64,000 nucleotides of DNA from Jatrophihabitans cynanchi (GTDB lineage Bacteria > Actinomycetota > Actinomycetes > Mycobacteriales > Jatrophihabitantaceae), in contig NZ_CP097463.1 in the NCBI RefSeq assembly GCF_027247405.1, positions 1,426,001 through 1,490,000 on the forward strand. The letters run 5' to 3'. The notes beneath the pieces were generated by a model. It saw nothing but the letters and a program-made list of their open reading frames with translations. It did no database searches and was not told the origin of the DNA. Of this stretch, positions 33,902 through 60,791 are shown piece after piece. The position numbers were made by a program, and so were the translations under genes. The number at the start of each line of letters is the position of its first letter. Within the stretch, counting starts at the first letter, position 1.

Positions 33902-33952
33902 GAAGCCCTCGCGACCAGACGCCGGGGCACGCCGCCGGCGTGTCGGCCGCGG

Positions 33953-33961: not shown

Positions 33962-34047
33962 ACTTGACTCAGCACCGCCCGGGCCGCTGTCAAGCCGCTG
34001 ACACTGCCAGTTCACCCAGCTACGACCCAGCCGAGCAGGAGGCCCCC

Positions 34048-36293: not shown

Positions 36294-36309
36294 CGATCGA
36301 GGAGGACCG

Positions 36310-36588: not shown

Positions 36589-36597
36589 GAGAACGCG

Positions 36598-39696: not shown

Positions 39697-42600
39697 TCAG
39701 AGTCCGTACCGCTCCGCCTCGATGTCAGACGCTAGGTCCTGCTCGACGGTGACGGCGAGCTCGCGCCGGTCGACGGCGGCCTCGGCTGGTTGGTCGGTTT
39801 GCTCGGCGAATAGGTCGTCGGCCGATGTGGGGACGACCAGCTCGACGAGGTAGGCGTTGAGCTGCTGCTGATCGGCACCGGTGCGCACTGCGATGTGCCG
39901 TAGCTGTCCTTGCATGAGTTCGGTGTCGGGCTGGCCCCACAGCATCTGCTCGCGGAGGTGGTCGGCGAGCAGCCGGGTCGCGTCGTAGGCGGCGTGTTCG
40001 GCGATCGGCAGGTCGCGCAGCGCCGTGCCGGTGCTGGACCAGTCGTAGCGGTCGAGCTTATCGTCGATGAGAACGCCGAGCAGGGTGTCGCGGCGGGCGG
40101 GGTCGGCCAGTGTGGCGGCGAGGTCGAGGGCGCCGTGGCGTTCGAGGATGGCTGCCGCATCCGCGTCCGCGGGCGGGGCAGCGACGGTGAGGGCGGCGGC
40201 GGGCACGCCGCGGGCGGTGAGCTTGTGGCCGGCGGCGAGGGTGGCCTTGCGCCCGGCCTCGTCGGGGTCGAAGCCGAGAACGACGGTGCGCAGGTCGGTG
40301 TGCTCGGCGAGCAGGTCGAGGTGGGCGTCTGTGAGCGCGGTGCCGCAGGTGGCGATCGGCACCAAGTCGAGGCCGCCGTGCGGGGGGTCGGCCTGCCGAA
40401 CGGCGGCGATGGCGGCCTGGATGGCGAGGCGGTCCATCGGGCCTTCCACGATGATCGCGCGGGCGCCGTCGGTCAGACGGGCGACGGCTTCGGTGTCGAG
40501 ACCGTAGAGGACTCGGCTCTTGTCATACAGCGGGGTGCCGGTGGGATTGAGGTATTTCGGGTTGTCCGGGTTGGTGTCGCCCGCGGGCTTGCGGCCGACG
40601 AACCCGATCGGCCGGTCGGCCTCGTCGAGCACGGGCAGCATCACGCGGTCGCGGAAGCGGTCGATGAGCTGTCCGTGGCGCGAGCGGGTGGCCAGGCCGG
40701 CGGTCTCGATCGCGGTGTCGCTGTAGCCGAGCCGGCGGAGATGATCGACGAGCAGGGTCCAGTGGCCCGGGCGGCTGGGCGCGTACCCGACCCGAGCGGT
40801 ATCGGCTGCCTCGGCGAGGCGGCGCTGCTCGAGGTAGGCCACGGACCAGCGCTGGGTGGCCGGGTCGAGGGTCTGCATGCGGAACCAGTTCGCGGCCGCG
40901 GCCTGGATCGCGTACTGCTCGGCGAGCAGACGCGGTGAGGTGACCCGCGGCCGGGCGAGCGGGAACCCGGGCAGCGCGGTCGCGACGCGGGTCCCCGTGT
41001 CGAGGTCGTGGGTGGTGCTCACACCTGGACCAAGCGGTGCGGGAGGGGCCGAATGCGACATCGGCTGCACACCAATTTCCGGCGCGGCCGGTGCGCCCAC
41101 CGGTCCCGCTTCTGAGGCCGGCACGGCTGTCGCCTCGGCGGGTGGTTCGATCCCGCGTAGGCCGAGCTCTTGGGCGGCCAAGCGGGCGCGTTGCCGCTGC
41201 TCGCGAGTCGTCTGCTCCCAGTCCTGCCAGGTCTGGTGCATGCCGACGACCGTGCGCAGCTCACGTTCGATCTCACGCAGGGTTTCCTGGCCGCGCTCGA
41301 CGCGGTCGGTGGCTTGCTGGTGGCCGCGCCGCAGGCTTTCGATCGCGGCGTTGTTGCGGCGCCAGCGGCGCCGCTCGGCGGTATTGAGCAGTCCGGCGGC
41401 GACGGTGTGCTCCCGCTGCAGTCGGTTGACGCGGGTGCGTTGCGCCCGGGCGCGCAGCGACAGTGCGCGCAGGTCGTGCCCGACGTACGCGGGTTGATCG
41501 CGGGTCTCGATGCGCAGCCCTTCGGCGACCCACGCGCTCAGCTGGTCGGGCAGGAACGCGCGCATGGTGCCGGCCATCGCCTGCTCGGCCAGCGCCCGAC
41601 GCGCCTGCGTCCAGAGTTCACGCGCTTCCGCGTCGCCCGCCGGTGGCCGGGCGCCGACCGGGTCGGTGCTCGGGCTGGTGACGTCGGTGCCGGGCTCAGG
41701 GACCGATGCGTCCGGGTCGGCGTCGCGGTCTGCGGCGGCCGCGCGGTTGCTGCCGGTGTCGGCGGCAGGGTCGTAGCCGGTCGCGTCCTGGTAGGCGACG
41801 ACGGTGCGGGCCAGCGCCAGCCACGCCTCGCGGCGCGAGCGTAGCTCGGCCCGACCGTCGGCCGCGGCGGTGGGCAGCGGGCCGAGCGCACGCACCCAGG
41901 CCGGGACGGTGCCGTTCTCGTAGCCGCCGTCCTGACCGGCGGCGGCTTGGCCGGCCAGTTGCGCGGCCAGGGCCTCGATGCGTTGGTCCATCGCCGTGGC
42001 GACCTGCACGAGTGCGGCCGCGGCGTCGGCACTGACCGGGTCGGTGAGCGTGTCGCCGCGGGCTGCGGCGAGGATCCCGGTGGCTCGCTCGGACCAGGAC
42101 AGCAGCACGCCACTACTGCCGTCCAGGTGTCCGGTGGCGGCGGCTTCGCGCCAGCGGCCGGTGATGGTTTCGCAGCGCCAGTGCAGCACGGCGGCGACGT
42201 CGGCGGCACTGCCGAGCTCACGCTGGGCGATGGCTTGGATCAGTAATTGCCGGGAGTCCCAGCCGAGCAGCTGCGCGGTTCCCAGCGCGCGCACCAGCGA
42301 TGCCCAGGCGGGATCGGTCACGGCCCGGTCGGCGGCCTCCCGGCCGGCGTGCTCGGCGATCAGCTGCTCGTACGCGGCGCCGCGGACCACGGTCGACAGG
42401 TCGCCGAAGATGACCCGGAGCCGTTGCAGGCTGCTCGCCTCGACGTAGAGGTCGCGTTCGACGTCGACAACGGAGGCGGTGGGCTGGTCGTCGCGTTCCA
42501 GGATGCGGGCCAGCACGGACAGGTGGTGTTGTTCGGGCCAGCGTTGGTGCGGTTCGCGTTCGGTGTCGTCGGTGACGACGTAGACGTCGTTGGAGCGTTG

Positions 42601-45537
42601 GCCGCGGCTCATCATCACGTACAGCGCCTCGGCGCTGGTGGCCTCGGTGACCAGTCCGCGGGCGGTGGTGACGGTGCGGCCTTGGGCGGAGTGGATGGTG
42701 CCGGCGTAGGCGAGTTGCACGTTGGCCGTGACGTAGTCCGCGGGTAGCCGCAGCTTCCACTCGACGCTGCGTTCCTCGTCTCGATGTCCGATGGAGGTGA
42801 CCGAGACGATGGTCAGCGACCCGTCGCGGTGGCGTTTGGTGACGCGCCAGGTGTCGCGGTTGGCGACGAACCCCTCCCCCGCTTCGGCGCGCAGTGTGCG
42901 CTCGTTGAGCCGGGTGACGATTAGGTCGCCGACGCCGGCGCGGTTGCCGTCTGCCAGCAGCACACCGTCGGCTTCGACCAGGCCGCGGGAGACGAGGTCG
43001 GCGCGGGCCCGGGCGGACAGTGTGGCGGCGGCGGCTTCGGTGTCGGCCATCAGCAGCGCCACACCGGCCCGCTGGCTATCGGCGCCGCCCGGGCCGACGC
43101 TTTGGTCTGTTTGGAAGGCGAGGTGGTCGGTGAGCCACGCCCGGTAGCTGGTCTCTTCCATGCGCGCGTGCGGCCCGGCGTGGATGCGGCCCCGCCGCTC
43201 GTACTCGGCGATCGCGTCCAGGTCGCGGTTGCGCAACGCGAGCGAGGCCGTGCATTCCCATTCGCGCAGCTGGCCGTGCTCGTCGCGGAAGCGGCGCACC
43301 GTGGACAGCACCGGGGCGCTGGTCCGTTCGATGACGGTGCGGAACATGCCGCCGGCGCCGATCGCGCCGAGCTGCTTGTCATCGCCGACCAGTAGCAGTT
43401 TCGCGTCGGCCTTGCGTACCGCGGTGAGGATCGCGTCCAGCTCGCGGGTGGTGACCATGCCAGCCTCGTCGACGATCACCAGCTGTCCGGGGCGCAGTGT
43501 CCAGTCCGGCCGCGGCGTGTAGGGCTTGCCGCGGCCGCGGGCCTCGTCGGCGGCCTTGACCTCCTTGCGGTGCTCGTGCAGCCACTTGGCCACGTTCTCG
43601 GCGCGGGCGCCGATCGATTCGGACAGCACCGACGCCGCGATCTGGCTGGGAGCCAGGGCCAACACCTCGCGGCTGCTGTCCCCTGCCGAACTCGCATGGC
43701 CGGCCACGCGATCCGTCGAGTCCGTTGCCGGGTCAGACACGGGTCGGGCGTGCCACGCGGCGGCGATCGCTCGCTGCACGTAGGTCTTGCCCGACCCCGC
43801 TGGCCCGACGATCGCCGAGACCCTGGCGCCGGTCGTCAGCGCGGTGTGCACGGCCGCGTCCTGGTCGTCGCCGAGCGGCACCCGGGCGATGCTCACGGCC
43901 AGGTCCGCGGCGCTGATCAGCGGCGCGTCGGCGTCCTCCAACGCGGCGAGGATGCGCTGCTCGGCGGCGACAGTGGAGCGTGCGGCGTACAGCACGTCGG
44001 CATGCTGGGTGTAAACGTTCTCGGCGTCGGAGGCGCGTCGCAGCGTCGTCCCGACGTCCAGCAGGTCCGGCGGCGTGACCTGCACCGATTCGGCCAGAAT
44101 CCGGGTCACCAGCCGCTCGATGTGTTTCTGGTGCTCCTCGTACGGCAAGTCCGCCGATGGTGGAAGGACGCGGGAGATGGCGAGCACGGCATGGTGGCGG
44201 GTCCACACCGCTCGGGTCTGATTGAGTACCTGGACGGCGTCGGTGACGATCTGCGCATCTGTGCGCGGCTTGCGCCGGTCGCGGCCGGCCGCGTTGACGG
44301 CGCTGTTCAGCGCCGCGTCCGCGATCTGTGCCGGGTCGTGGCCGGCGGCGCTGAGTTCGTGCTGCCAGCGGGCGATCGCGTCGGCGGTGGACTCCGCGCC
44401 GGTCTTGTCCGAGCGGGTGGACAGCGTGAACCGCCGCGCCAGTTTGCGCCACCCGCCGGCGCTGACCCGGTCGCGGTGCTGCTCGTGGTGTCCGTCGGCG
44501 TCGTGCGCCGTGCTGTCGTCGCGCTCATGCGTGACCGCGCCGTTGAGGGCGTCTTCGATGGCCGCGCGGCGCTTGGAGAAGTGCTCGATTACCTCGGCCG
44601 GGATGCCGTCGACCTCGCGGATGGTGTGCCGCTCGTTGGTGCTGAACCGCACCCCGAGCCGGACGGCGAGTTCACTTTCCAAAGCCTGCTCATACACCGC
44701 GCGGGCCCCGACGCTCGCCGCGTAGACGGCGCGGCCGTCGACGGTGCGCCACTTGCCGTCGGTGCACAGCACGCGGTTCGCGACGATGGCGTGGGTGTGG
44801 ATGTTGGGGTCTTGCTCGCGGCTCATGCGGTGCTCGAAGGCCGCGATCACCAGGCCTTCGGTGTCGATCTGACGCACGCCGTTCACGCCGGCGCGGGAGT
44901 AGGCGGCGTGGTCTTGCACGTACTCGAGGGCGGTGTCGACCGCGGCGCGGTGCGCGTCGAGGACGTCCTGCCAGACGGCTTCGCCGGCGACCGCCCCGAG
45001 CACGCTGACGCTCTTGACCGGTGTGAAGGTCAGCTCATAGGCGGCGACGGCCTGACGGTCACCCTCGGCCAGCACGCGGGCCCGGACCGCGTCGCGGGAG
45101 GCTTCGTCGGCGTCCTCGCCGAGGTCGGCGACCGCCCGTTCGGCCCTGTCTGCCGCTGATTCGTAGATGGCGAATTGCCGCCCCAGGTATAGCGCCTTCT
45201 CCGCCGCAGCCAGCGCGGCGCGCCGCTCCGGGCCCCTCAGCGACCGGTCGTTGAGTAGGGCGATGGCCCGCTGTTGCAGCTGCTCGTCGTAGTGCGGATG
45301 CCGGGCCTGACCGACCAGATTCTCCAGCTCGGCGGGCTGCACTGCCCCGGCCAGGTCGAGTGTTGACAGGCCGCGCCCAATCCACCGGCCCGGCGATTCG
45401 CCGTGTGCGTGCACGTCGCTGTAGTAAGCCAGCGCCTGGGTCGGCGACAGCTGCGCGAAGTCGTCGGCGCCCGAGGCGACCTGCCGAGTCAGGTACTTGC
45501 AGCCGGTGCCCGCGCCGACCCGCCCGACCGTCAACAC
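39697..45537 (-). CDS. MobF relaxase-helicase fused to a DnaG-like TOPRIM domain
   Basis: A 1946-residue protein that should nick oriT, unwind the plasmid and lead the strand through the channel. The N-terminal relaxase has candidate Tyr residues (Y15, Y38/Y39 in ALAYYSDV), the SPGRWIGRG segment and the metal triad in AFEHRMSREQDPNIHTHAI (H236, H247, H249). A RecD-like helicase follows (Walker A IVGPAGSGKTYVQ near 580, VIVDEAGMV, IHSAQGRTV). The last 450 residues resemble DnaG: PVLDEADRPIGFVGRKP, NPKYLNPTGTPLYDK and the TOPRIM core IIVEGPMDRLAIQAAI (about 1700). Primase-like fusion is a useful feature for priming the transferred strand. The ATG at 45537 is the first in frame. Confidence 0.92.
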   Translation of the reverse strand: MLTVGRVGAGTGCKYLTRQVASGADDFAQLSPTQALAYYSDVHAHGESPGRWIGRGLSTLDLAGAVQPAELENLVGQARHPHYDEQLQQRAIALLNDRSLRGPERRAALAAAEKALYLGRQFAIYESAADRAERAVADLGEDADEASRDAVRARVLAEGDRQAVAAYELTFTPVKSVSVLGAVAGEAVWQDVLDAHRAAVDTALEYVQDHAAYSRAGVNGVRQIDTEGLVIAAFEHRMSREQDPNIHTHAIVANRVLCTDGKWRTVDGRAVYAASVGARAVYEQALESELAVRLGVRFSTNERHTIREVDGIPAEVIEHFSKRRAAIEDALNGAVTHERDDSTAHDADGHHEQHRDRVSAGGWRKLARRFTLSTRSDKTGAESTADAIARWQHELSAAGHDPAQIADAALNSAVNAAGRDRRKPRTDAQIVTDAVQVLNQTRAVWTRHHAVLAISRVLPPSADLPYEEHQKHIERLVTRILAESVQVTPPDLLDVGTTLRRASDAENVYTQHADVLYAARSTVAAEQRILAALEDADAPLISAADLAVSIARVPLGDDQDAAVHTALTTGARVSAIVGPAGSGKTYVQRAIAAAWHARPVSDPATDSTDRVAGHASSAGDSSREVLALAPSQIAASVLSESIGARAENVAKWLHEHRKEVKAADEARGRGKPYTPRPDWTLRPGQLVIVDEAGMVTTRELDAILTAVRKADAKLLLVGDDKQLGAIGAGGMFRTVIERTSAPVLSTVRRFRDEHGQLREWECTASLALRNRDLDAIAEYERRGRIHAGPHARMEETSYRAWLTDHLAFQTDQSVGPGGADSQRAGVALLMADTEAAAATLSARARADLVSRGLVEADGVLLADGNRAGVGDLIVTRLNERTLRAEAGEGFVANRDTWRVTKRHRDGSLTIVSVTSIGHRDEERSVEWKLRLPADYVTANVQLAYAGTIHSAQGRTVTTARGLVTEATSAEALYVMMSRGQRSNDVYVVTDDTEREPHQRWPEQHHLSVLARILERDDQPTASVVDVERDLYVEASSLQRLRVIFGDLSTVVRGAAYEQLIAEHAGREAADRAVTDPAWASLVRALGTAQLLGWDSRQLLIQAIAQRELGSAADVAAVLHWRCETITGRWREAAATGHLDGSSGVLLSWSERATGILAAARGDTLTDPVSADAAAALVQVATAMDQRIEALAAQLAGQAAAGQDGGYENGTVPAWVRALGPLPTAAADGRAELRSRREAWLALARTVVAYQDATGYDPAADTGSNRAAAADRDADPDASVPEPGTDVTSPSTDPVGARPPAGDAEARELWTQARRALAEQAMAGTMRAFLPDQLSAWVAEGLRIETRDQPAYVGHDLRALSLRARAQRTRVNRLQREHTVAAGLLNTAERRRWRRNNAAIESLRRGHQQATDRVERGQETLREIERELRTVVGMHQTWQDWEQTTREQRQRARLAAQELGLRGIEPPAEATAVPASEAGPVGAPAAPEIGVQPMSHSAPPAPLGPGVSTTHDLDTGTRVATALPGFPLARPRVTSPRLLAEQYAIQAAAANWFRMQTLDPATQRWSVAYLEQRRLAEAADTARVGYAPSRPGHWTLLVDHLRRLGYSDTAIETAGLATRSRHGQLIDRFRDRVMLPVLDEADRPIGFVGRKPAGDTNPDNPKYLNPTGTPLYDKSRVLYGLDTEAVARLTDGARAIIVEGPMDRLAIQAAIAAVRQADPPHGGLDLVPIATCGTALTDAHLDLLAEHTDLRTVVLGFDPDEAGRKATLAAGHKLTARGVPAAALTVAAPPADADAAAILERHGALDLAATLADPARRDTLLGVLIDDKLDRYDWSSTGTALRDLPIAEHAAYDATRLLADHLREQMLWGQPDTELMQGQLRHIAVRTGADQQQLNAYLVELVVPTSADDLFAEQTDQPAEAAVDRRELAVTVEQDLASDIEAERYGL

Positions 45538-46261: not shown

Positions 46262-47410
46262 ATGAGCGGTCCTAACGGCGCCGGCGTGAGCGGTGGCGTC
46301 AGCCAGGTCTACACCGAGGAAGGCGAGAGCTGGCTACGGGTCAGCCCGGGCCACTCGATCAGCGAACGGTGGCTGCAGGAGCGTGCGCCGGACCTGTACG
46401 CCCAGTGGTGGGCCGCGCCCAGCGGGGCGCAGCGCGACCAACTGGCGCACGTCATCGAGCAGCGGCTCGACGAGCTGGAGGCGGCGCCGACCTGGCGGCA
46501 GGCCGCGAACGCCGCCGGCGAACGGGCCGATAGCGCGCTGGTCGAGCGGGTCTCTCGCTACGAGGACCAGGCCGAGCGGCTAGGCATGATCGCGATCGAC
46601 GACCCGACCCGCCCGGGCGAGCACCTACGGTTCCAGCACGAGGGCGATCGGCTGCGTGACGAGCTGGCGACCGCGCCGATCGACGCGCAACCCGAGCTGC
46701 TCACGCGTCGCCTCGAGGCGGCTGAGCTCGCCGCGGACCGACCGGTCCTCGAGGCCGCCTCCGGCTACACGGTGCAGGTCGACCGGCTCGCGGTCGGCGC
46801 GCTGGCCGGCAACCGGTCGAGCGAGCCGATGGCGGTGAGCGCCGACGCCGTGCGGGCCGAGATGATCGCCGAGCACCCGCAGGCCGCGCTGCGCGCGGAC
46901 GTGCTTACCGCGGTCGCGGCCGCCGGCTATGACGCGCCACAGCTGCGCGGCGAGGTCGAACGGCATGGCGTCGACCTCGCACAGATCGCGCCGGCGCTAC
47001 TGCCGGCCAGCGACTTCAACCAGCGGCACGCCGCCGCTATCGATGCCACCCTCGATCGAGAGATCGCCGCCGGCGGCTTCGACGGGCTGCCGTCCTACAT
47101 GGCCGCCTGGCGGCACGCACGGCCCGCGACGATGAGCCTGCACGACACCGAGCGGGCCATCGTCGAGCATGTCGTAGCGGGCGTGATCACCTCCAGCGAC
47201 CCGGGCGGCGCCGACGCACGCGCGGCGGATCGGATGTGGCAGCGGGCCGCCGACCGAGTCGCGTTGCGCGAATGGAGCGCCGCACACCGAGAACTGGAGG
47301 CACCGGTCGACAGGGTCGACGGGCCTGAGCGGCAGCTCGAGCTGGGCCTGATGCACTTCGACGACGCCGTCGCCGAGACCGGACACGATGCAGAGCAGGA
47401 GGTCGGCTAA
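46262..47410 (+). CDS. Helical protein of unknown function, transfer region
   Basis: A 382-residue soluble protein, acidic and almost all helical, with many Trp/Leu/Glu-rich segments (SISERWLQERAPDLYAQWWA, HVIEQRLDELEAAPTWRQAA). No catalytic motif or membrane segment is seen. The ATG has AGGAGG at 46247-46252. It is preceded by a hairpin and repeat copy C, and its stop overlaps the start of the next small gene (TAATG). By its position beside the relaxase and the shared repeat it is likely co-regulated with the transfer genes. Confidence 0.65.
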   Translation: MSGPNGAGVSGGVSQVYTEEGESWLRVSPGHSISERWLQERAPDLYAQWWAAPSGAQRDQLAHVIEQRLDELEAAPTWRQAANAAGERADSALVERVSRYEDQAERLGMIAIDDPTRPGEHLRFQHEGDRLRDELATAPIDAQPELLTRRLEAAELAADRPVLEAASGYTVQVDRLAVGALAGNRSSEPMAVSADAVRAEMIAEHPQAALRADVLTAVAAAGYDAPQLRGEVERHGVDLAQIAPALLPASDFNQRHAAAIDATLDREIAAGGFDGLPSYMAAWRHARPATMSLHDTERAIVEHVVAGVITSSDPGGADARAADRMWQRAADRVALREWSAAHRELEAPVDRVDGPERQLELGLMHFDDAVAETGHDAEQEVG

Positions 47411-47706
47411 TGGCAGTCAGCGACGAGGACGGAACCGCCGAGCGGTTGGCGCAGACCCGCGCCGAGCGGCGACACATCCGGCGGCTGCGGACCGCGGAAC
47501 GCCGCGACGCGGCGCACGAGCGCGGCGCCGAGCGGCGGGCCGAGCTCGAGACCGAGACCGGTTACGACCCGCTCACCACTCCCTCGATGTCGTCGGCCGA
47601 CACCCGTGAGCTGCTTGCCGCGGAGCAGGACGCGTTGGCGCTGGAGCGAGGCAGCCTGGTCGCCGACTGCGGGCCAGAAGACGACCGGGAGATGGACATC
47701 ATCTGA
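47410..47706 (+). CDS. Small charged helical protein, transfer region
   Basis: A 98-residue protein with an Arg/Glu-rich amphipathic helix in its first half (RLAQTRAERRHIRRLRTAER) and an acidic C-terminus (DCGPEDDREMDII). The ATG at 47410 overlaps the upstream stop, so the two proteins are probably made together. No family recognised. The composition suggests a small DNA- or protein-binding partner of its neighbour. Confidence 0.6.
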   Translation: MAVSDEDGTAERLAQTRAERRHIRRLRTAERRDAAHERGAERRAELETETGYDPLTTPSMSSADTRELLAAEQDALALERGSLVADCGPEDDREMDII

Positions 47707-48185
47707 CTCCCATCACCTATGTGGTTAAGACTTCGCACCCCTACAACGCCGACGAACCGGCGTGCCGTTGACATTGAACTAAGGCCGTCGCCTGCGGACT
47801 GCATACTCATGCGGCCTCGAACTCGACGGAGCGAGGTTGATCGCCACCACCGAACGGCGGGCGCGCGCGAGAGCCGTCGATAGGCTCGCTCGATGTCGCC
47901 ATGCGTTGCGCGCAGATCAGTCTGTAAGGAACAAGTGCCGGCGCCGGGCCGATACGGTCTGCGGCGATCCGGTACCTGCCAGTGCACGGCGGCGGGTGCA
48001 CTCGGCTAGCAAGGTACGAAGGGATCCCGGTCGGCGGCCTCGAGCATCAACACCGACGAGGTGCGACACGGGATCGCTGCCAGTCGGCTGCTTGGCGCCT
48101 GCGTTGTCTCCTTATGTTGGGCGTTCGTGACTAGCGTGCCGCCAGCGCTCATGCCGGATCTCGGCCCGAAACGGCCCGCACGATC
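47707..48185. other. Non-coding stretch before the Shedu-like remnant
   Basis: I see no supported gene in these 480 bases, which are less GC-biased than the transfer genes. They mark the boundary between the transfer region and the accessory region with the IS21 element. Confidence 0.4.
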
Positions 48186-48366
48186 ACTTGGGACGACTAC
48201 GCCGCCTGGGTGATGACGGAATGGGAGCAGCTGCTCGCGACGCAGCCGGCCGAAGACGCCGTCCAGAACTTCCTCGAACGCCATCCGTCACTTATCCCAG
48301 GCGCGTTCGGCGACGTCGGCCCGGGGCGGTAACAACGGCCCTCACCTTCAGGGGGTCTGGCGCGAG
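48186..48366 (+). pseudogene. N-terminal remnant of a Shedu-like (DUF4263) gene
   Basis: The frame reads TWDDYAAWVMTEWEQLL and then AVQNFLERHPSLIPGAFGDV, matching the N-terminal W-x-x-L-L...FLExHPxLIPGAFG pattern of DUF4263 (SduA) proteins. A stop (TAA) comes at about 48330 after a one-base frame slip. In the next frame the family sequence continues as GGNNGPHLQGVWRE up to the insertion point of the IS21 element. A start could be GTG 48210 or ATG 48213. The rest of the gene lies at 51029-51520. Confidence 0.72.
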
Positions 48367-48555
48367 TGACAGCGGCCACGGGAAACTGCCCGGAGACGGC
48401 CATGTAGCTGCCCGGTGGCGGACATGAAAACTGCCCGCTGATGGTCATGGGATCTGCCCGACACGACGTCGTTCGCCTCGCCGCCTGCTGCGGTTGGGGC
48501 CCCTCTTCGGATCAGCTGGCGGTGCTGAAGCGCCGTCGACCCGAAGAGGGACAAC

Positions 48556-50088
48556 TTGAAGTCTGCCGAGGAGATCATGCACATGTTGGAAGCTTTCGAC
48601 TTGACCGGGTCGTTGCGCGACGCGGCCGAACTGGCTGGCTGTTCGCACCACACGGTCGCCAAGCACGTTGCGGCCCGCGACGCGGGTCAGCTCACCGACC
48701 AGGCTGCAGCGCGGCCGATGTTGATTGATGAGTTCTTGCCCAAGATGGAGGAGTGGATGGAGCACTCCAAGGGCAAGATCCGCGCTGATGTGGCGCACGA
48801 GAAGCTGCTCGCGTTGGGCTATCGGGGTTCGGAGCGCACCACTCGCCGTGCGGCCGCGACGGTGCGGGCGGCGTACCGGTCCGGCCGGATCCGGGTGCAC
48901 CGGCCGTGGGTGACTGAGCCGGGGATGTGGCTGCAGTACGACTTCGGCGACGGGCCGGTGATCGACGGGGTCAAGACGATCCTGTTCTGCGCGTGGTTGG
49001 CGTGGTCCCGGTTCCGGGTGGTGTTGGCGCTGCGGGACAAGACGATGCCCAGCGTGTTCGCGGCCCTGGATGTGACGCTGCGCAGGATCGGCGGCGTCCC
49101 GACCTATGTGCTGACCGATAACGAGAAGACCGTCACCGTCGAGCATGTCGCGGGGATCGCGGTGCGTAACCCGCAGATGCTCGCGTTCGCCCGGCACTAC
49201 GGGGCGACGGTGCACACGTGCGAGCCGGCCGATCCCGCGTCGAAGGGCGGCTCGGAGTCGACGGTGAAGCTGGCGAAGGCCGACCTGGTCCCGAAGGACA
49301 CGAACCTGCTGGGCGCCTACGGCTCGTTCGCCGAGTTGGAGGCGGCCTGCCAAGCGTTCTGTGAGCAGGTCAACGCCCGGGTCCACCGGGTGACGCGGCG
49401 GGCGCCGGCCGAGATGCTGACCGAGGAACAGGCCCGGCTGCACCGGGTGCCGACCGTGGCGCATACGGTCGCGTTCGGGCTGACCCGCACCGTCGCGGCG
49501 AAGACGCCGATGGTCACCTTCGAGGGCGGGCAGTACTCGGTGCCACACGCGTTGCTCGGCCAGCAGGTCTGGGTCCGCAGCTACGGTGTCGGCGCCGGCG
49601 AGCAGGTGGTGATCGTGCACGTCGGCGAGCGCGGTCCGGTCGAAGTCGCCCGGCACCTGCGCGCGCGGCCGGGCAGTCCGCGGCTGCAGGACGCGCACTT
49701 CCCACCCGCTCCGGCCGGGCTGGCGCGGGCGCCGAAGGCGCGCACCGCCGCCGAGAGTGAGTTCCTGGCGTTGGGTGAGGGCGCGCACCTGTGGTTGGCC
49801 GAGGCTGCCGCCGCGGGCACCACAAGGATGCGGGTCAAGATGGCCGCCGCGGTCGGCACCGCGAAGCTCGTCGGTGCTGTCGAGGTGGACTGGGCGCTCG
49901 GGCACGCCGCGGTCAACGCCCGCTTCGGCGAGCATGATCTGGCCTCGATCCTCGAGCACCACGCCAGGACTCGGCCCGGCGAGCTGCACCGGGCCGGGGA
50001 GGATCGTTCCCTCACCCAAGGCACTGCGAGCTGGGCCGCGCTCGGTGCCGCCGGGGACGGCCTGGCCGAGGGCGGGGTGAGCGCGTGA
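48556..50088 (+). CDS. istA: IS21-family transposase IstA
   Basis: A 510-residue transposase. The N-terminal helix-turn-helix (SLRDAAELAGCSHHTVAKHV) binds the terminal repeats. The DDE catalytic domain shows WLQYDFGDGPVIDG (first Asp), YVLTDNEKTVTVEHV (second Asp) and SKGGSESTVKLAKADLVP (Glu). Length fits the family. The start is a TTG at 48556 with GAGGGA upstream; internal ATGs are less well placed. It overlaps istB by four bases, the usual arrangement. Confidence 0.93.
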   Translation: MKSAEEIMHMLEAFDLTGSLRDAAELAGCSHHTVAKHVAARDAGQLTDQAAARPMLIDEFLPKMEEWMEHSKGKIRADVAHEKLLALGYRGSERTTRRAAATVRAAYRSGRIRVHRPWVTEPGMWLQYDFGDGPVIDGVKTILFCAWLAWSRFRVVLALRDKTMPSVFAALDVTLRRIGGVPTYVLTDNEKTVTVEHVAGIAVRNPQMLAFARHYGATVHTCEPADPASKGGSESTVKLAKADLVPKDTNLLGAYGSFAELEAACQAFCEQVNARVHRVTRRAPAEMLTEEQARLHRVPTVAHTVAFGLTRTVAAKTPMVTFEGGQYSVPHALLGQQVWVRSYGVGAGEQVVIVHVGERGPVEVARHLRARPGSPRLQDAHFPPAPAGLARAPKARTAAESEFLALGEGAHLWLAEAAAAGTTRMRVKMAAAVGTAKLVGAVEVDWALGHAAVNARFGEHDLASILEHHARTRPGELHRAGEDRSLTQGTASWAALGAAGDGLAEGGVSA

Positions 50089-50906
50089 GCGCCACGACCC
50101 GGACCGGGACAACGCCGAATGCGCTTATAGCGGCGGGTGTTCCGGCCGCACCGCCACTGCCGGATGACCTAGAGGCTGTGTTGCGTCGGCTGCGGCTGCC
50201 ACACATCCGCCGGCTGGCGCCGGAGGTGCTCGCCACCGCGAAAGCGCAACGCTGGGAACCGGCCGAAGTGCTGCGGGCCCTATTCGCCGAAGAGGCCGCC
50301 GGACGCGAACGCTCCGCGCTGGCGACCCGGCGAGCGGCGGCGGCGTTCCCCACCGGCAAAACCTTCGACGCGTGGAAGCCGGACGCCTCCTCGATCCCGG
50401 CACCGACCCAGCAGGCGCTGCGCACCCTGGAATGGGTGCACCGGCGAGAGAACCTGGTGGTCTGCGGCCCGTCCGGGACCGGGAAGACGTTCCTGCTCGA
50501 AGCCCTCGGCCAGCAGGCCGTCGAATCCGGGCTCAAGGTCGCCTGGTTCACCCTGGAAGACCTCGGCGTGCTGCTGCGCCGACACCGGGCCGATGACACC
50601 GTGTCCAAGGCGATCGCCCGGGTCCTACGTGCAGATCTCGTCGTCGTCGATGACATCGGGCTCTTGCCGGTGGCCCAAGACGCCGCCGAAGGCCTCTACC
50701 GCCTAGTGGATGCGGCATATGAGAAACGCTCCGTGGCCGTGAGCTCGAACCTGCACCCGGCAGCGTTCGACGAGCTGATGCCCAAAACCCTCGCCACCGC
50801 GACCGTCGACCGACTGCTTCACCACGCCCACGTCTGCCAAACCAGCGGCGACTCGGTCCGACTGTCCCAAGCACTCGCCGGACAAGGAGTGCTGGCCTTG
50901 ACCTGA
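50085..50906 (+). CDS. istB: IS21-family helper ATPase IstB
   Basis: A 273-residue AAA+ ATPase related to DnaC that helps IstA choose and capture target DNA. After a variable Pro/Ala N-terminus comes LRLPHIRRLAPEVLATAKAQ, then Walker A VCGPSGTGKTFLLEAL, Walker B LVVVDDIGLLP and the sensor segment AVSSNLHPAAFDELMP. The GTG at 50085 overlaps the istA stop. Intact. Confidence 0.93.
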   Translation: MSATTRTGTTPNALIAAGVPAAPPLPDDLEAVLRRLRLPHIRRLAPEVLATAKAQRWEPAEVLRALFAEEAAGRERSALATRRAAAAFPTGKTFDAWKPDASSIPAPTQQALRTLEWVHRRENLVVCGPSGTGKTFLLEALGQQAVESGLKVAWFTLEDLGVLLRRHRADDTVSKAIARVLRADLVVVDDIGLLPVAQDAAEGLYRLVDAAYEKRSVAVSSNLHPAAFDELMPKTLATATVDRLLHHAHVCQTSGDSVRLSQALAGQGVLALT

Positions 50907-51028
50907 GATCGCGGCCGGGTGGTGGCCAGCAGCTGGGCAGATCCCATGGCCACCACCGGGCAGTTCTCGTGACCGTCACCGGGCAGGTTTCACGACCGCC
51001 TCTGGGCAGAACTCAATGGCCCTTGACA

Positions 51029-51520
51029 CGCGAGCCGCAGTTGCACGGCTCGGGATGTGACCAGATACCGGACTTAATGTGGATCAGCCGCTCCACGTCG
51101 ATGATCACACCAATCTGTATCGAGATCGAGAAGCCGGACAGGCGTTGGTTCGACCAGACCGGTGACCCGCTGAAGGATTTCGTCCGCCCGCGAACAGCTC
51201 GTGAACTGGGATTCCTGGCTTTCTCGGCCCGAGAATGAGGCGATCTTCCGGTCAGCGTTCAGGCTCAACGTGTACGCCGACTATTCGCTGCGCCCGCAAT
51301 TCCTCCTGATCTAAGGGCGACGAGACGAGCTTGACCCGCGTTGACTCATATCGCGTCAACGTCCAGACGCAACAGCTGTCTGGCTGTTCTTGGGTTTCGC
51401 GGCGCGACCTGCTTCCAGTCGGGCGACCGGTACCCGATCTCGCTGACGCGCACGAGGGGCAGCGCCCCCAGCGACCTGCAACGGTTCGACCATTCGAACG
51501 ATCACGTTCAGGTGGGACCG
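51029..51520 (+). pseudogene. Core remnant of a Shedu-like (DUF4263) gene
   Basis: Directly after the IS21 target duplication the frame reads PQLHGSGCDQIPDLMWISRS, then ITPICIEIEKPDRRWFDQTG and DPLKDF, matching the core of DUF4263/Shedu nuclease-like proteins. A frameshift near 51180 moves the homology to another frame: REQLVNWDSWLSRPENEAIF, then YSLRPQFLLI, a TAA where the family has Tyr, and GRRDEL. Later pieces (DSYRVNVQTQQ, DLQRFDHSNDHVQ) lie in further frames. With the IS21 insertion, at least three lesions make the gene inactive. Shedu is an established anti-phage system; that role is gone here. Confidence 0.72.
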
Positions 51521-51632
51521 AGAGAGAACGTCGCACGTGTCACCGACAGCTTCCGGGGCGGACCATGCTCACAATGAACGTGCGTGGGCCTGCTGATATC
51601 GAGGCCACGCAACCGGCGCTGGACCCGGCTCG

Positions 51633-53651
51633 TTAGATGCTTCGCCAGCGCTTCCTGTGTTGTTCGTCCTTGAAGTCGTCTGGCTGCAACTGCGCCCTAC
51701 AGTCCAGCCGGTCGTTCAATCCACGGGAACGTTCGGAGATCGTTGGCAGGCGCGGGACCGGTCCCCACGTCTGCCACATGTGTCGAATAAGCTGCGTTGC
51801 GTCCAACGCGTCTACGTCGTTGAAGGACCCTGGACCGTCGGCACGGCCGAGTATCTCCTCTAGCTGTTCAAGCTGAGCGCAAATCGCCTTGATCCGAGTT
51901 AGGGCGGAAGTCAGTTCCGCGCAGCCGTGAAGGCAGGCACGTGCGTGCGCAATCCGCGCGCACGCCAGTCGGCGCATGTCAGGGGTCCATGGGTCGTCAG
52001 CCCCGTCGATGGCGTCCAGGACGTCGTCGGCTGCGATCCATGCGACCGATCGCGCGGCTACTGACTCGGACTCGTGGCGCTTACGCGCGTCCAGGTTCGC
52101 CGGGAGGAAGGTGGACAGCGGCATCGCCGTGAACGTGTTGAGCGCCCGCTCCCAGTGGACATCGACGAGGCGCAGCGCCGCCGTGCCCACCTCGACGACC
52201 GGATGTTCTGTTCCGTCGCGCCAGACGCGGAACGTTTCGACTCGCGGCAGTAATCGGCTGGCGAGAACTAACGCTTGCAAACATGGGTTGATGTTCTCAG
52301 TGTCGAGTTGCTCGACGTGCGCTTCGGCGACTCGGGAGTTGAACACAAGCCGACGGAGCCGCAGACCGTTCGTTCCAAAGAACGCCTCTGCGCGACGCCA
52401 CGGCTGCAAGCGTCCCGGTTCGTCACAGGTCGGGGTGAGCAATCCTGGGTCGCGCTCTCCGGCGCGGTCGTGGGCGAACGCAGCTTCGCAACCTCGAACG
52501 AAAGACACTGCGCCGCTGAATGCGTGTACGACTTGTCGGGGAGTGAACTCCGCATCGTCGACGATGAAAACTTCGCGGTGCCCATCCCAGACGAGCGATT
52601 CGTGAGCTTGCCCGTTGCGGACGTCCCTCAGCACGGCAACGTCGAGCACGGATGCGAGCCAGTCGCCGTCACTCGCGATCGCAGCTTGAAGAGGACCGAG
52701 CGTTGGTGGAACGCTCCATTGCCTGCGGCTAAGGCAACGCATCGTCCACGCGTACTGCCGAAACGGTCCCTCGGTGATCCGCTTGTACACGTCGGCGAGC
52801 TGATGGGCTCGGGTTTCACTGTCGGCTTCGGACCTCAAGTCCTGCAGAGTCGCTATGACCCGCCGCCAGGTCTGTCGGAGTGCCTCGTCGCGCCCGTGCA
52901 GATACGCGAACGCGGCAGCTCTGTCCGTGGGCGCTTCCCGCCTGCTGTGGTCGAGCGCCCAAAGCATCTCGTGCATAGACGAGTAGGCGAGCACGGGATC
53001 GGGAGCGTCGGCGATCCATCCACAAATGCAGACGAGAGCGAGCACGTCGTCCACTGGCTCGACGCCAAGCGACGCGACATGAGGCAGCACTTGCCTCACG
53101 AGGCTTGTCACGTCGTACTTGAACGCTTCGAAGACCCGTGAGGCACTGAACTCTCCTGTCTCGTCGACTGGGCGAGTGCTTAGGCCGAACACGCGACTAA
53201 GACTGTCGTGCTCTTCTTGGCCCGTCGGCTTCTCTGGCTGCTCAAACTCGATACGCGCTGTCCCAGCAATCGACTGAGCGGGCTGCTCGTTCTCCACCAC
53301 CGCAAGCACCGCCGCAACGGCCGTGTCCATTCGCTCGAGCGCCGATGACGCGTCGGCCGCGTTGAACGGTTCGAACGCGCACATCGCCATCAGACGCCAG
53401 ATGGCTGTGCTCCGAACCTCGACGATCTTCTCAAGTTGGCGACGGATACCGTTGAATGGCCGCGTCAGGTCCACATCCTGTACTGCGTGATGTACGGCGG
53501 CGCCGGCTTCTCGAAGTTGCCGCACGTACGTGTTCCAAACACCGGCTGGCAAAGGCACGGTGCTCACGGCGGGGAACGCCCAGGACTTCCGCTCAAGCTC
53601 TGCTCGGACAGGTGCGGCGAGGCGTCGCCGAGCCTCGGCAGGGATAGTCAC
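51633..53651 (-). CDS. Large unknown protein with a HEPN-like RxxxxH motif
   Basis: A 672-residue soluble protein in DNA less GC-rich than the transfer region, so probably recently acquired. No family recognised. The most informative segment is DVAVLRDVRNGQAHESLVWDG around residues 338-356. It contains R345-N-G-Q-A-H350, the RxxxxH motif of HEPN ribonucleases, in a predicted helix followed by a strand, as in HEPN folds of the ApeA or abortive-infection type. The remaining sequence is mixed helical, with Trp/Arg-rich segments such as RCLSRRQWSVPPTLGPLQAA. It stands alone beside defence genes. An HEPN toxin or effector is an inference from one motif. Confidence 0.6.
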   Translation of the reverse strand: MTIPAEARRRLAAPVRAELERKSWAFPAVSTVPLPAGVWNTYVRQLREAGAAVHHAVQDVDLTRPFNGIRRQLEKIVEVRSTAIWRLMAMCAFEPFNAADASSALERMDTAVAAVLAVVENEQPAQSIAGTARIEFEQPEKPTGQEEHDSLSRVFGLSTRPVDETGEFSASRVFEAFKYDVTSLVRQVLPHVASLGVEPVDDVLALVCICGWIADAPDPVLAYSSMHEMLWALDHSRREAPTDRAAAFAYLHGRDEALRQTWRRVIATLQDLRSEADSETRAHQLADVYKRITEGPFRQYAWTMRCLSRRQWSVPPTLGPLQAAIASDGDWLASVLDVAVLRDVRNGQAHESLVWDGHREVFIVDDAEFTPRQVVHAFSGAVSFVRGCEAAFAHDRAGERDPGLLTPTCDEPGRLQPWRRAEAFFGTNGLRLRRLVFNSRVAEAHVEQLDTENINPCLQALVLASRLLPRVETFRVWRDGTEHPVVEVGTAALRLVDVHWERALNTFTAMPLSTFLPANLDARKRHESESVAARSVAWIAADDVLDAIDGADDPWTPDMRRLACARIAHARACLHGCAELTSALTRIKAICAQLEQLEEILGRADGPGSFNDVDALDATQLIRHMWQTWGPVPRLPTISERSRGLNDRLDCRAQLQPDDFKDEQHRKRWRSI

Positions 53652-54108: not shown

Positions 54109-55263
54109 TTACGACTCCTCGGTTTCGTCGCGCTCGGGTAGTTCGCCATCAGCGATCCCATCGAGTCCGCCGAGCGGGTCGATCGCGGTGTAGCCCGCGA
54201 TGTACGTTGCGAGAATTTCCGCGCGGCGGGCCAACGCTCGGCCATCGTTCGTCGACTGCACGAAGACGTTGTACTCGCGGAGTCTCGCGTTGGCCGGCCG
54301 GCCGTAGGCGGGCTCGTCCTCCACCATCTGCGCGGCCTGGCGTCTGAGCTGCTCGAATTCCGCCAACTTGCCTCGATCGACAGCATCCGCGAACGCCCGT
54401 TGTCGGAAGGCGATGTAGTAGACGACGACGGTGCCGATCGACGCGAGCAGTCGATCGTCCTCATCGAAGACGGTGACCATGCGGTCGAGCGTCTGCTGAG
54501 CGAGTGCTTGGTACGCCTGCATGTCAGCCGCCGTGATGCGGGGAGAGGCACCGCGTGTGGCTACGAACAGGTCGTAGAGAGTTTCAGCTTTGGTATCGGT
54601 GATCTTCTGACGGCTCGCGACCTGGTGCTCGATCGCGAGGAATTTGGCGCCGAGTTCCCGGTACTTGTAGCGGGCGCTCCGGATCGGCGAACGGATGACG
54701 AGCAGCTCGTGCTCGGCCAGTGTGTTCGCCGCGTCGCGGGTGGGTCCAGTGAGCGCGTTACGACGTTCGGCAGCATTGAGCGCCGCGGAGGCGTTCAATC
54801 GCTGGAACATCTCCTCGATCAGATCCCCGCTGTCGCTCGTAACACGGACGATCGGCAGCTCAAAGTCGACAAAGCGGCGGGCGAGCAGCGGATACTCGGC
54901 TTGGAGGGTGGATAGCGTCATTCCCGCTGCCTTGACGGCTTCGTCCTCGAAGAAGACGAAGTCTTCGGCCAGCTTGAGCTGGTCGGCGAGGAAGGCGAGG
55001 ATGGCTTCCAGTCGTTGCTTTCCGTCGATGACGGCGTACTGGTAGGCAAGCCCTTCCGGGCTGACCCTTCGCACGGTCGCGGTCTCGAAGTAGAGCTTCG
55101 GCACGTCGAGGCCGTTGATGATCGAGTCGATGAGCGCGCTGCGGGCACCCGGTTTCCAGACGTCGCTCTCGCGCTGGTATGGCGGGTCGAGGTTGACCAC
55201 GCCCTTCATTCGGTGGAACCGCGAGACTGTGATCTCGGGCAGTAGCTCCGTTCGTATTTTCAT
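54109..55263 (-). CDS. DUF262 domain protein (ParB/Srx-like fold)
   Basis: A 384-residue soluble protein. The N-terminal DUF262 core is clear: LDPPYQRESDVW, VPKLYFETATVRR, YAVIDGKQRLEAILAFL (the D-G-x-Q-R nucleotide-binding motif) and MFQRLNASAALNAAERRNAL. A helical C-terminal domain of about 180 residues follows, acidic at the end. DUF262 is the N-terminal half of GmrSD type IV restriction enzymes, but the DUF1524 HNH domain found there is absent. The ATG at 55263 overlaps the stop of the FRG gene, so the pair is transcribed together. It probably senses or binds modified DNA or nucleotides; that is inference. Confidence 0.82.
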   Translation of the reverse strand: MKIRTELLPEITVSRFHRMKGVVNLDPPYQRESDVWKPGARSALIDSIINGLDVPKLYFETATVRRVSPEGLAYQYAVIDGKQRLEAILAFLADQLKLAEDFVFFEDEAVKAAGMTLSTLQAEYPLLARRFVDFELPIVRVTSDSGDLIEEMFQRLNASAALNAAERRNALTGPTRDAANTLAEHELLVIRSPIRSARYKYRELGAKFLAIEHQVASRQKITDTKAETLYDLFVATRGASPRITAADMQAYQALAQQTLDRMVTVFDEDDRLLASIGTVVVYYIAFRQRAFADAVDRGKLAEFEQLRRQAAQMVEDEPAYGRPANARLREYNVFVQSTNDGRALARRAEILATYIAGYTAIDPLGGLDGIADGELPERDETEES

Positions 55264-56072
55264 GCCGGCCCTCGCCCGTGGCCGGCCTTGATGCGATTCG
55301 CGATGCGATCAAGATCTCGATAGATGGAGACCTCGTTGAAGCCGAGAGTGTCGAGTTGTTCGCGCAGGTCGGGCTTCGCGTCACCTGGGACGACGAACGC
55401 TTGGAGGGCCTTCGCCTTCCGCAGTGGCTCTGGTTCGCTATTCGCGGTTGGCAGTTGCGAAACGGTGAACGTCCCGGTCTGGAAGCGAATCCGGTCGAAC
55501 ACCAACGGCGCGACGACGGCGCGGGGCTTGGAGGGGTTCTCCGCGTCCTTGCCCGGCAGATAGTCCTTGAGCTTTCCGTCCCCGTCCGAGAGCAGTCGCG
55601 GGTGGCCGCCATCGCTGTCGCCGGCCTCGACGTTCAGGTCGTTCGGGTGGAGGACGAAGAACTCTCCGTCCATCTCGACGCCGGTGTCCGCGGACTCTGA
55701 CCCACGTTCGCAGGCGAAGAACAGTGCGACGAGCGGGCTTTGTGACCAGTCGAGGAGTCGCGTCGGCAGAGCATGGTGCTGGGCGAAGGTGATCCAGCCC
55801 CAGTCGTCGAACGCGTACTGAAGTCCGGCCGCTGCCGCTTCCTGGCGGAACCGTGCGAGCATTGCGCGTTCGCCAGTCCGGTGGCGTTCGATGCGGAACG
55901 CGGACGCCTCGAGGCGCCAACTCTGGTCGCGGTGGCCGCGGTACCAGACCTCGCGCCCGTCCGCCGTGATCGGTGCCAGTACCCGCATTAAGTCTTCTAC
56001 GGACCCGATCGTCGGGGTCTCAGATTTTGCGTCGACCACTTCTGTCACAGCGGCCAAATTTAGCAGTGTCAA
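55260..56072 (-). CDS. FRG domain protein
   Basis: A 270-residue protein with an FRG domain in its first 110 residues: VWYRGHRDQSWRLEASAFRI, RFRQEAAAAGLQY and the hallmark WITFAQHHALPTRLLDWSQS followed by PLVALFFACE. The C-terminal part is mixed alpha/beta. FRG domains often occur next to restriction, toxin or nucleotide-related genes; the biochemical function is not established. It overlaps the DUF262 gene by four bases. The ATG at 56072 is 96 bp from the divergent GHKL ATPase gene, so the two operons share a control region. Confidence 0.8.
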   Translation of the reverse strand: MTLLNLAAVTEVVDAKSETPTIGSVEDLMRVLAPITADGREVWYRGHRDQSWRLEASAFRIERHRTGERAMLARFRQEAAAAGLQYAFDDWGWITFAQHHALPTRLLDWSQSPLVALFFACERGSESADTGVEMDGEFFVLHPNDLNVEAGDSDGGHPRLLSDGDGKLKDYLPGKDAENPSKPRAVVAPLVFDRIRFQTGTFTVSQLPTANSEPEPLRKAKALQAFVVPGDAKPDLREQLDTLGFNEVSIYRDLDRIANRIKAGHGRGPA

Positions 56073-56168: not shown

Positions 56169-58499
56169 GTGAGTTCAGAGCCCCGCGTCGCCGTTGGGGA
56201 AGAGACGATCGACGTCACCCCGCACCCGCGGCTGCTCGCCGTCCTGGGCGATATCGAGTTCGCTCCGTGGCAGTGCCTGGCCGAACTGATCGACAACGCC
56301 TTTGATGACTTCCTGACCGCGCCGCCCGACGGTGAGACGCCGACAGTGGCGATCTCGCTGCCCGCGCGCGGGTCGGACCGCCGCGACGCGCAGGTCTGGA
56401 TCAACGACAACGGCCGGGGAATGAGCCTCGACCACCTCAGTGGCGCTGTTTCGGCCGGTTGGACCAGCAACGCTCGCTACGGGAAACTCGGGCTATTCGG
56501 GATGGGTTTCAACATCGCGACCGCACGGTTAGGCAACACCACAACAGTTCGGACGACCCGAGCGGGTGACCCCGACTGGATCAGCGTCACTCTCGATCTA
56601 CATAACATGGCCGCGAACGCCGACTTCGAGGTCCCGGTCGTCCGCGAGCCGAAAGACGACCTGTCAGTTCATGGCACCGAGATCATCATCAGCGGCCTGA
56701 AGCAGGAGCAGCATGAGGCCCTGTCCCGCCAGCAGGTCAAGATCCGCCGGGTCCTCGGGGACGTCTACTCCTATCTACTACGCGAAAAGGGCTTCTCTCT
56801 GCTCGTCGACAACACGGCGGTGCAACCACTGCTGCCGTGCGTGTGGAACCACGACCGTGCCGTTGTGGTCAGCGGCGAGCGGATCCCGGCCTACATCCCG
56901 ATCGATAAGCAGCTCAGCCCACTGCTCGCCTGCTTGGACTGCGGCCGATGGCAGGATCTCGGCCTAACGCGCTGCGAGGAATGCGGCGGCTCGAACCTTG
57001 AAGAGCGCGAGCGACGCGTCACCGGATGGCTCGGGATCCAGCGGTACTCGCACAAGACCGACTTCGGCGTCGACTTTCTGCGCAACGGGCGCAAGATCCT
57101 TGTCCGCGACCTCAGCCTGTTCTCCTGGGCAGACCCCAACGAGCCAGGCGCGCGGCCGATCCCTGAATACCCCATCGAGGTGCCCAACGAGGGACGCATC
57201 GTCGGCGAGATCCACCTCGACCACGTCCGGGTCAACTACCAGAAGAACGCCTTCGAATACGACACACCGGAGTGGAAGTACGCGGTACGGGTGTTGCGCG
57301 GCGACGGACCGCTTCGGCCGCAGTTCGCGCGCAGCATGGGATACGACACGAACGAGTCGCCGATCGGACTGCTGTTCACCGGCTACCGCCGCCTCGACCC
57401 CGGACTACGTCGCCTGGTCCCCGGCGACGGGAAGACTGCGATCCACCAAAAGGCCCGGGATTGGGCCGAGTTGTTCCGCAAGGGCGTGGCCGACTACCAG
57501 GACGACACCGTCTGGTACGAAGCCGCCCGGCAACACGACATCCCGAAGCCGACCGTGCCACCAGAAGCAACCCAGCCCAGCGAAGACCCGGAGCTGGACG
57601 CCCGGACACGCCTGGACATCCCGGAACCGGGCGAGGCGACACCAGGCCCGATCGACCCGCCGCCGGCCCGCGAAACCGAGGAGCAGAAGCAGCAGCGCTA
57701 CCGAACCGTCGGACAGGTCCTGCCCGACATTTCAGGAGAATATTCGCTGCCGAACTACAGCACCTGGAACGTCACCGTCTACGCCCTGTCCGGCACCGAG
57801 CTCCTCGACAACAACGAGCAGCACGTGCCGGTGTACGCGCAGGGACAACGCGGCCCCGAGGTTCACGTGTTCGTCGACCTCGAGCACCCGCTGTTCACCG
57901 AGTTCGGCAGCGACCCGCGCGAGCACGCCGTGCTGAGCATCGCCGAGTACATGCGTGAACGACGCGGCAGCAGCGCGGCGGTCAGTTCGATCGTGGCCGA
58001 GCTGAAGGATCGGTGCCTGCCAGACCAGAGGGTGACCCCATCGGCGCTGGCCGCGATCGCCCACTCCCTGCTCGCCCGGGTCCGCGACGCCATGCGCCCC
58101 GTGATCGCCGGCAACGCCGAAGGGTTCTGGTCGCTGATCGGCGCGGACGACCACGCCGCCACCGAGCAGACCTACGCCAGTGAAGGGCTGGACCGCGCCT
58201 GGGACGACGTACGCGCGGCGGGCGACTGGATCAGCTACGCGCCGGTGACCTCGGTCGCCCGGCTGATCGGCCAGCGCCCCGGCGACTTCTTCGACGGCAA
58301 GGTCTTTCGTGCCAGCTACGCCGCTTTCCAGGACAGCCACGCCCGGTCGCTGGCCGTCAGCCGCATCGTCGGCTACCTCAACGACGTCGGCCTGCTCGCC
58401 GAACGCCGCGCTCGGCCCCGCCCGGACGATCTGAACCGGGCGCGGCTCAGCTGCCGGTTGCTCGACGACGAGTTGGCGGAGGTCAGCACGGATGAATGA
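56169..58499 (+). CDS. GHKL/MORC-like ATPase of a restriction-type system
   Basis: A 776-residue ATPase of the Hsp90/MutL/MORC fold. Motifs: N-box AELIDNAFDDF (E39, N43), G1 box WINDNGRGMSLDHL (D80), G2 box YGKLGLFGMGFNIATARL (104-121). Around residues 255-280 is a probable zinc ribbon (ACLDCGRWQ and TRCEECGGSN). The C-terminal 300 residues are helical with no named domain. Such MORC-like ATPases are known companions of Vsr and C5-methyltransferase genes. The GTG at 56169 has GGAGGG eight bases upstream; the gene overlaps the next by eight bases. It may clamp or remodel DNA for the helicase-nuclease. Confidence 0.87.
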   Translation: MSSEPRVAVGEETIDVTPHPRLLAVLGDIEFAPWQCLAELIDNAFDDFLTAPPDGETPTVAISLPARGSDRRDAQVWINDNGRGMSLDHLSGAVSAGWTSNARYGKLGLFGMGFNIATARLGNTTTVRTTRAGDPDWISVTLDLHNMAANADFEVPVVREPKDDLSVHGTEIIISGLKQEQHEALSRQQVKIRRVLGDVYSYLLREKGFSLLVDNTAVQPLLPCVWNHDRAVVVSGERIPAYIPIDKQLSPLLACLDCGRWQDLGLTRCEECGGSNLEERERRVTGWLGIQRYSHKTDFGVDFLRNGRKILVRDLSLFSWADPNEPGARPIPEYPIEVPNEGRIVGEIHLDHVRVNYQKNAFEYDTPEWKYAVRVLRGDGPLRPQFARSMGYDTNESPIGLLFTGYRRLDPGLRRLVPGDGKTAIHQKARDWAELFRKGVADYQDDTVWYEAARQHDIPKPTVPPEATQPSEDPELDARTRLDIPEPGEATPGPIDPPPARETEEQKQQRYRTVGQVLPDISGEYSLPNYSTWNVTVYALSGTELLDNNEQHVPVYAQGQRGPEVHVFVDLEHPLFTEFGSDPREHAVLSIAEYMRERRGSSAAVSSIVAELKDRCLPDQRVTPSALAAIAHSLLARVRDAMRPVIAGNAEGFWSLIGADDHAATEQTYASEGLDRAWDDVRAAGDWISYAPVTSVARLIGQRPGDFFDGKVFRASYAAFQDSHARSLAVSRIVGYLNDVGLLAERRARPRPDDLNRARLSCRLLDDELAEVSTDE

Positions 58500-60159: not shown

Positions 60160-60791
60160 CTCGAGCAGATTCTCGCCGCGTACCGCCCGAACAGATCGAT
60201 GCGGTCGTCAAAGCGCTCTACACCGAGGCAGACCGGCTCGATTGGGAACACCTATCGCCACAACGCCGGACCGCCCTATACGACACCTGGGTCACTGACC
60301 CGCAGATCGGCGCGGTGCTCACCGAGTTTATGAGCGCCGAGACGGCTCGGTCATGGATCAAAGACGGTCCAATGAAGGAGTACCGGCGAGCGCGCCAAGG
60401 CGCGGGGCGCTACGCCAAGTTCGGTTCCCGCCAGGGACCGACAGCGGCCCAGATCGTCGCTCACGCGCTCGGTACGGAAGCCGTGATCATGGACGGAACG
60501 GTTGGCGTCAAGCCGTTTCACTGTGTGGCCACGATGAACGGCGCCGGATCCACGTTCGTGGCGTGGGGTGAAGCCCGCAACTTCCGTCACCTGGTCTGGG
60601 CGGCGCTGAGCCACCTGACCGACAACCCCACCGACTCCGCGGCCCTGGTCATCATCGAGACGATGGCCGAGCCCACTCCCTCGGCGGACAAGGCTCGACA
60701 GGAGAGCATCGCCCAACGCTGCTCACTGGCGCTCAAGTACTACCGTGTCGCGAACGAGCGACGCCCGACCGCAGCCGGGAGTGAGCAGTGA
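60156..60791 (+). CDS. Unknown protein of the GHKL-helicase-Vsr-Dcm operon
   Basis: A 211-residue soluble protein. It begins with helices (PEQIDAVVKALYTEADRLDW), then ALYDTWVTDPQIGAVLTEFM, a basic region (MKEYRRARQGAGRYAKFGSR), and a strand-rich segment including AVIMDGTVGVKPFHCVATMN. No family recognised. The ATG at 60156 overlaps the helicase stop and the stop overlaps the Vsr start, so it is an obligate operon member and probably part of the complex, for example as a specificity or DNA-binding subunit. Confidence 0.72.
   Translation: MTRADSRRVPPEQIDAVVKALYTEADRLDWEHLSPQRRTALYDTWVTDPQIGAVLTEFMSAETARSWIKDGPMKEYRRARQGAGRYAKFGSRQGPTAAQIVAHALGTEAVIMDGTVGVKPFHCVATMNGAGSTFVAWGEARNFRHLVWAALSHLTDNPTDSAALVIIETMAEPTPSADKARQESIAQRCSLALKYYRVANERRPTAAGSEQ

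Follow-up and report, generated by a model that had tools for sequence, protein, structure and literature searches.

The DNA on either side of an IS21-family insertion sequence (IS) in the window (the whole 64-kb stretch analyzed here, 69% GC) very probably is what remains of a bacterial gene for a Shedu-type (SduA, DUF4263) anti-phage nuclease, as judged from sequence similarity. Taken together, the observations are with high confidence best explained by a Shedu/SduA pseudogene that received a single IS21 insertion, most likely after the gene had died. The broken gene presumably once had a role in defense against phage.

Identity and extent of the split gene

A family profile (A2) was built from nine relatives and aligned to the flanks of the IS using a frame-tolerant aligner. 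The flanks scored 269.4 bits and the highest score among 200 shuffles was 23.0, so the match is not due to chance. Three pieces, each searched separately, match the PADLOC model PDLC00398 in the order in which they lie along the model: 48183-48329 at model positions 16-63 (E 7.4e-15), 51035-51235 at positions 76-125 (E 2.5e-16) and 51174-51311 at positions 124-169 (E 4e-7). When the first two of these were each searched alone against plasmids, they returned the same eight records, which carry genes annotated as Shedu (SduA-domain proteins). A read-through translation with X at the breaks is colinear with positions 8-176 of the 289 in PDLC00398 (E 1.4e-55) and reaches 38.6 bits with Pfam SduA_C (PF14082; DUF4263), for which the cut-off is 27; the DUF4263/SduA identity proposed for the rejoined translation in an earlier note on this DNA is thereby supported. 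The SduA_C cut-off is passed by this read-through and not by the single pieces, of which the highest-scoring reached 14 bits, and an SduA_C scan of the whole of the organism's own genome did not detect the locus. Joining 48366 to 51035 places VWRE directly before PQLHG, as in the family, and the alignment agrees with the earlier proposal that this junction restores family sequence across the target duplication. An intact reading frame is lacking, which makes the locus a pseudogene and not a working member of the family, and a functional product is not expected from it.

Table 1. Positions in the window of the pieces of the Shedu-like gene and of the parts of the inserted element
Feature	Position	Strand	Basis
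N-terminal piece, profile columns 9-19	48148-48180	+	frame-tolerant profile alignment
Second piece, different frame	48183-48323	+	PDLC00398 match and profile alignment
Third piece, after frame change near 48324-48327; ends inside the left target duplication copy	48328-48366	+	profile alignment
Target duplication CGCGAG, left copy	48361-48366		sequence
Complete IS21-family element, 2662 bases	48367-51028	+	plasmid relatives align over whole length; tips TGACA/TGTCA
Left inverted-repeat arm, repeated ~22-nt units	48408-48459	+	52 nt, 87% complementary to 50935-50986
istA transposase, 510 aa, uninterrupted	48556-50088	+	NF033546, 183.5 bits (cut-off 160); colinear with plasmid copies
istB helper ATPase, 273 aa, uninterrupted	50085-50906	+	PF01695, 168.8 bits (cut-off 24.1)
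Right inverted-repeat arm	50935-50986	-	complementary to left arm
Target duplication CGCGAG, right copy	51029-51034		sequence
Fourth piece, nuclease core (PD ... IEIEKP)	51035-51184	+	PDLC00398 match and profile alignment
Fifth piece, after frame change near 51185	51186-51338	+	PDLC00398 match and profile alignment

The earlier note had placed the gene at 48186-51520, with frameshifts near 48330 and 51180 and a Tyr-to-stop change before GRRDEL. The locus is real and all three breaks are found: the profile alignment changes frame near 48324-48327 and near 51185, and a TAA codon at 51312-51314 occupies the position of the family's Tyr, ahead of GRR. The extent requires revision, as the family sequence begins at 48148 and ends at about 51338-51365; the aligner stops at 51338, and whole-genome profile searches reach 51362-51365, reading past the TAA and then a TGA. 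The earlier count of breaks was also incomplete. It missed an additional frame change near 48181, implied by the N-terminal piece at 48148-48180 (its score matched by 3 of 2000 shuffles) lying in a frame other than that of the next piece, and it missed the absence of the C-terminal ~40%.

About 120 of the 305 profile columns, covering some 40% of the protein at its C-terminal end, are undetected, which may reflect deletion, replacement or drift. A C-terminal profile applied to 51315-51760 gave 14.7 bits, a score equalled by 139 of 300 shuffles, and we rejected on this basis a candidate C-terminal remnant (RFDHSN at ~51482 and SFRGGPC up to 51568) that looks family-like by eye. Scans of both strands of 51339-52600 and of 46900-48147 likewise stayed at shuffle level (41, 3, 25 and 34 of 60 shuffles reached the score, the value of 3 belonging to the minus strand of 51339-52600).

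The IS21 element and the order of events

Both istA and istB score above their family cut-offs, and the element has the repeated terminal inverted repeats (52-nt arms, 87%) and the short target duplication of the IS21 family. Its istA and istB are colinear with those of copies carried by plasmids of Rhodococcus and Dietzia, and 123 plasmid records match the IS, 28 of them over at least 80% of the element. That its relatives lie on actinobacterial plasmids points to an actinobacterial host. The clean 6-bp target duplication reported earlier is present, CGCGAG being identical at 48361-48366 and 51029-51034; the duplications of three related IS copies measure 5, 5 and 6 bp. The organism's genome holds one full copy of the IS (the best match elsewhere is 65% along some 480 bases), so the junctions are not a mix-up between copies. 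With one complete copy available, the IS has no sister copy in the genome by which it could be dated.

The age of the decay can be judged from the gene itself. Thirty-nine columns are invariant in the nine relatives; the pseudogene covers 33 of these and keeps the invariant residue at 31. At third codon positions the four main pieces have a GC content (0.80) within the range of eleven neighboring genes (0.71-0.90). Both observations suggest that the death of the gene was recent, and it was probably fairly recent.

Four disabling changes are found in 523 bp of the gene, the 2351 bp of IS reading frame are free of them, and the probability that all four would fall in the gene, had gene and IS decayed equally, is p = 0.0011. 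With the weaker N-terminal frame change left out, three events remain and the same arithmetic gives p of about 0.006 (a hand estimate). The count favors an order in which most of the decay came before the IS, which arrived last, although the events are few and the IS could owe its intactness to selection for transposition. It is the count that supports the late arrival of the IS proposed in the earlier note. The opposite order, in which the IS struck a Shedu gene that was still intact, with the frame changes, the stop and the C-terminal loss following in the dead halves, has in its favor that the IS would by itself kill the gene and that the decay is shallow, as seen in the invariant residues retained. 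The lack of disabling changes in the IS frames speaks against this order, as does the identity of the two target duplication copies, and we regard it as unlikely.

The analysis makes use of assembled sequence, in which single base errors are possible, and the frame changes and stop could in principle be sequencing or assembly errors in a gene otherwise intact and disrupted by the IS only. However, 28 long open reading frames (ORFs), selected for their length, run uninterrupted through a total of 44,455 bases of the window, which disfavors a high error rate; moreover, a nonsense codon is atypical of an indel error and about 40% of the protein is unrecognizable as well. Assembly error is an unlikely source of the breaks, and a gene damaged by the IS only is highly improbable. 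Least probable is that the cell still makes working fragments from both halves or joins them by recoding. The mostly retained conserved residues would fit such a use; the several breaks of different kinds, the 2.7-kb insertion within the conserved domain and the unrecognizable C-terminal ~40% do not.

We retain the reading of a gene probably dead before the insertion. The locus is a pseudogene of a compact nuclease (about 290-315 aa) of the Shedu/SduA type and adjoins conjugation genes. It carries three frame changes and at least one nonsense codon, with the C-terminal ~40% no longer recognizable. A single IS21 element transposed into the gene, most likely already dead, duplicating 6 bp of the target. 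The locus offers a clean, layered example of a defense gene that dies and then becomes a landing site for an IS.

Genomic setting and intact relatives

The pseudogene lies near a TrwC relaxase/primase of 1946 aa (39697-45537), and a TraG/TraD-type protein is encoded at 23801-25654; the relaxase and coupling protein expected of an integrative conjugative element are both present near by. The earlier note had seen here a turnover of defense genes on the element. This is a reasonable view, resting on a single Shedu gene; the neighboring putative defense genes are long uninterrupted ORFs, as judged by the ORF alone.

Several other loci in the window were noted as well. The plus strand at 26752-35780 encodes a YhcG/DUF1016 nuclease and, after it, a protein of 1834 aa that matches helicases weakly (BrxHI, mad2, DrmD), together with two ORFs that have no family matches. 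At 36256-39666 (plus strand) lie a Multiubiquitin-like ORF (under the Pfam cut-off), an E1-like ThiF protein that also matches JAB weakly and an SDH/ClpP-like protease-domain protein, a set whose domains suggest a bacterial operon for ubiquitin-like conjugation. Immediately downstream of the pseudogene, the minus strand at 51633-53651 holds a 672-aa ORF with a weak codon-position signal, for which no match was found in Pfam, NCBIfam, PADLOC or plasmid tblastn. A GmrSD_N (DUF262-like) protein adjoins an FRG-domain protein at 54109-56072 (minus strand; PADLOC NsnA, PD-T4-2_A and PDC-S15). At 56169-62415 (plus strand) a GHKL-type ATPase ORF, a helicase carrying an Mrr nuclease domain and a C5-cytosine methyltransferase follow one another, a gene row that we take to resemble MutL/MORC-type restriction-modification systems, on which Iyer, Abhiman and Aravind have reportedly published.

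Profile and Pfam searches of the organism's own genome (one contig, 4,515,412 bases) found no intact copy. Intact copies in relatives, for which the earlier note suggested a search, do exist. The nearest, at locus L017 of genome G015 from the same taxonomic family, is 54% identical (92 of 170 aligned residues); unlike the pseudogene, it is one open frame of 295 aa with no IS. The same order contributes two further full-length relatives (G546 and G497) and the same class one (G914). Counting the organism's own genome, matches occur in 2 of 101 relatives, 5 of 397 genomes in the order (among them G564, a weak partial match) and 2 of 394 in the class, and the PDLC00398 search of a phylum sample returned 1 of 396, namely the organism's own genome. 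Other Shedu types, detected with Pfam SduA_C, occur in 6 of the 101 relatives.

Members of the branch occur in related genomes as well as on Arthrobacter, Priestia and rhizobial plasmids, and more distantly on one of Kosakonia; the named plasmid relatives are those of Arthrobacter sp. FW306-05-C, Priestia megaterium, Sinorhizobium chiapasense and Agrobacterium tumefaciens. One intact relative encoded on an Arthrobacter plasmid is WP_236803034.1. Judged from their family, the intact relatives are predicted to be single-gene anti-phage nucleases with a DUF4263 core. Two scans of viral contigs and a tblastn search of phage records with one relative returned no relatives. The sole match of a scan of genome contigs (L010, a Ruminococcus metagenome-assembled genome) spans 14 residues antisense to a helicase-like ORF and was dismissed as chance. 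A plasmid copy in Streptomyces sp. NBC_01006 (L040:2977-3576) is also short and starts at the nuclease core; within the 1400 bases scanned it covers profile columns 114-302 only, with no N-terminal part seen immediately upstream.

The nuclease core and comparison with known systems

Of a PD-(D/E)xK core, the pseudogene retains the PD and the first Glu; it has Glu at the position of the Lys. The same Glu is found in all ten clade rows (the nine A2 relatives and L020) and in a more distant Kosakonia plasmid protein annotated as Shedu; the replacement extends across the clade, covering loci L011-L018, L020, L023 and L041. Active sites of the ExE type occur in the superfamily, for example in BamHI, so the ExE branch may be active. 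It is conceivable, though unlikely, that this compact branch, with Glu at the core Lys and an extension after the nuclease core, is a functionally distinct Shedu subtype, as would follow if it cut with a different chemistry or were regulated differently. Searching the PDB with a profile of the nine relatives gave no Shedu structure, and the nearest relative alone gave none either; the more typical Shedu protein L001 finds the SduA structures 8ti8 and 8ti9 in such a search. Shedu is a PD-(D/E)xK nuclease family, and in V. cholerae Shedu the substitution K557A, designed to disrupt nuclease activity, abolished anti-phage activity (PMC12137116). The ExE core is a mildly novel thread, and it concerns the intact relatives rather than the pseudogene.

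The case is one of ordinary loss of a known defense gene by mutation and IS insertion, involving a known family and a known type of IS. Pseudogenes of restriction-modification and CRISPR-Cas systems have been described (PMC8791490), so events of this sort have precedents. In titles and abstract openings, no IS-split Shedu gene appeared among the literature matches listed, including the best 10 of 223. What the locus adds is a fossil Shedu gene adjoining conjugation genes and a pointer to an ExE-core Shedu branch with intact members.

Compared with known systems, the inserted element resembles IS21 elements on Rhodococcus, Dietzia and Arthrobacter plasmids in length, ends, istA and istB and short target duplication, with a DNA identity of 70-78% to the 12 copies listed. 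The pseudogene differs from the SduA family in being broken, split by an IS and devoid of the C-terminal ~40%. Lys occupies the core position, in an ExK motif, in six of six other Shedu rows, one of them E. coli SduA (8ti8), whereas the clade to which the pseudogene belongs has ExE.
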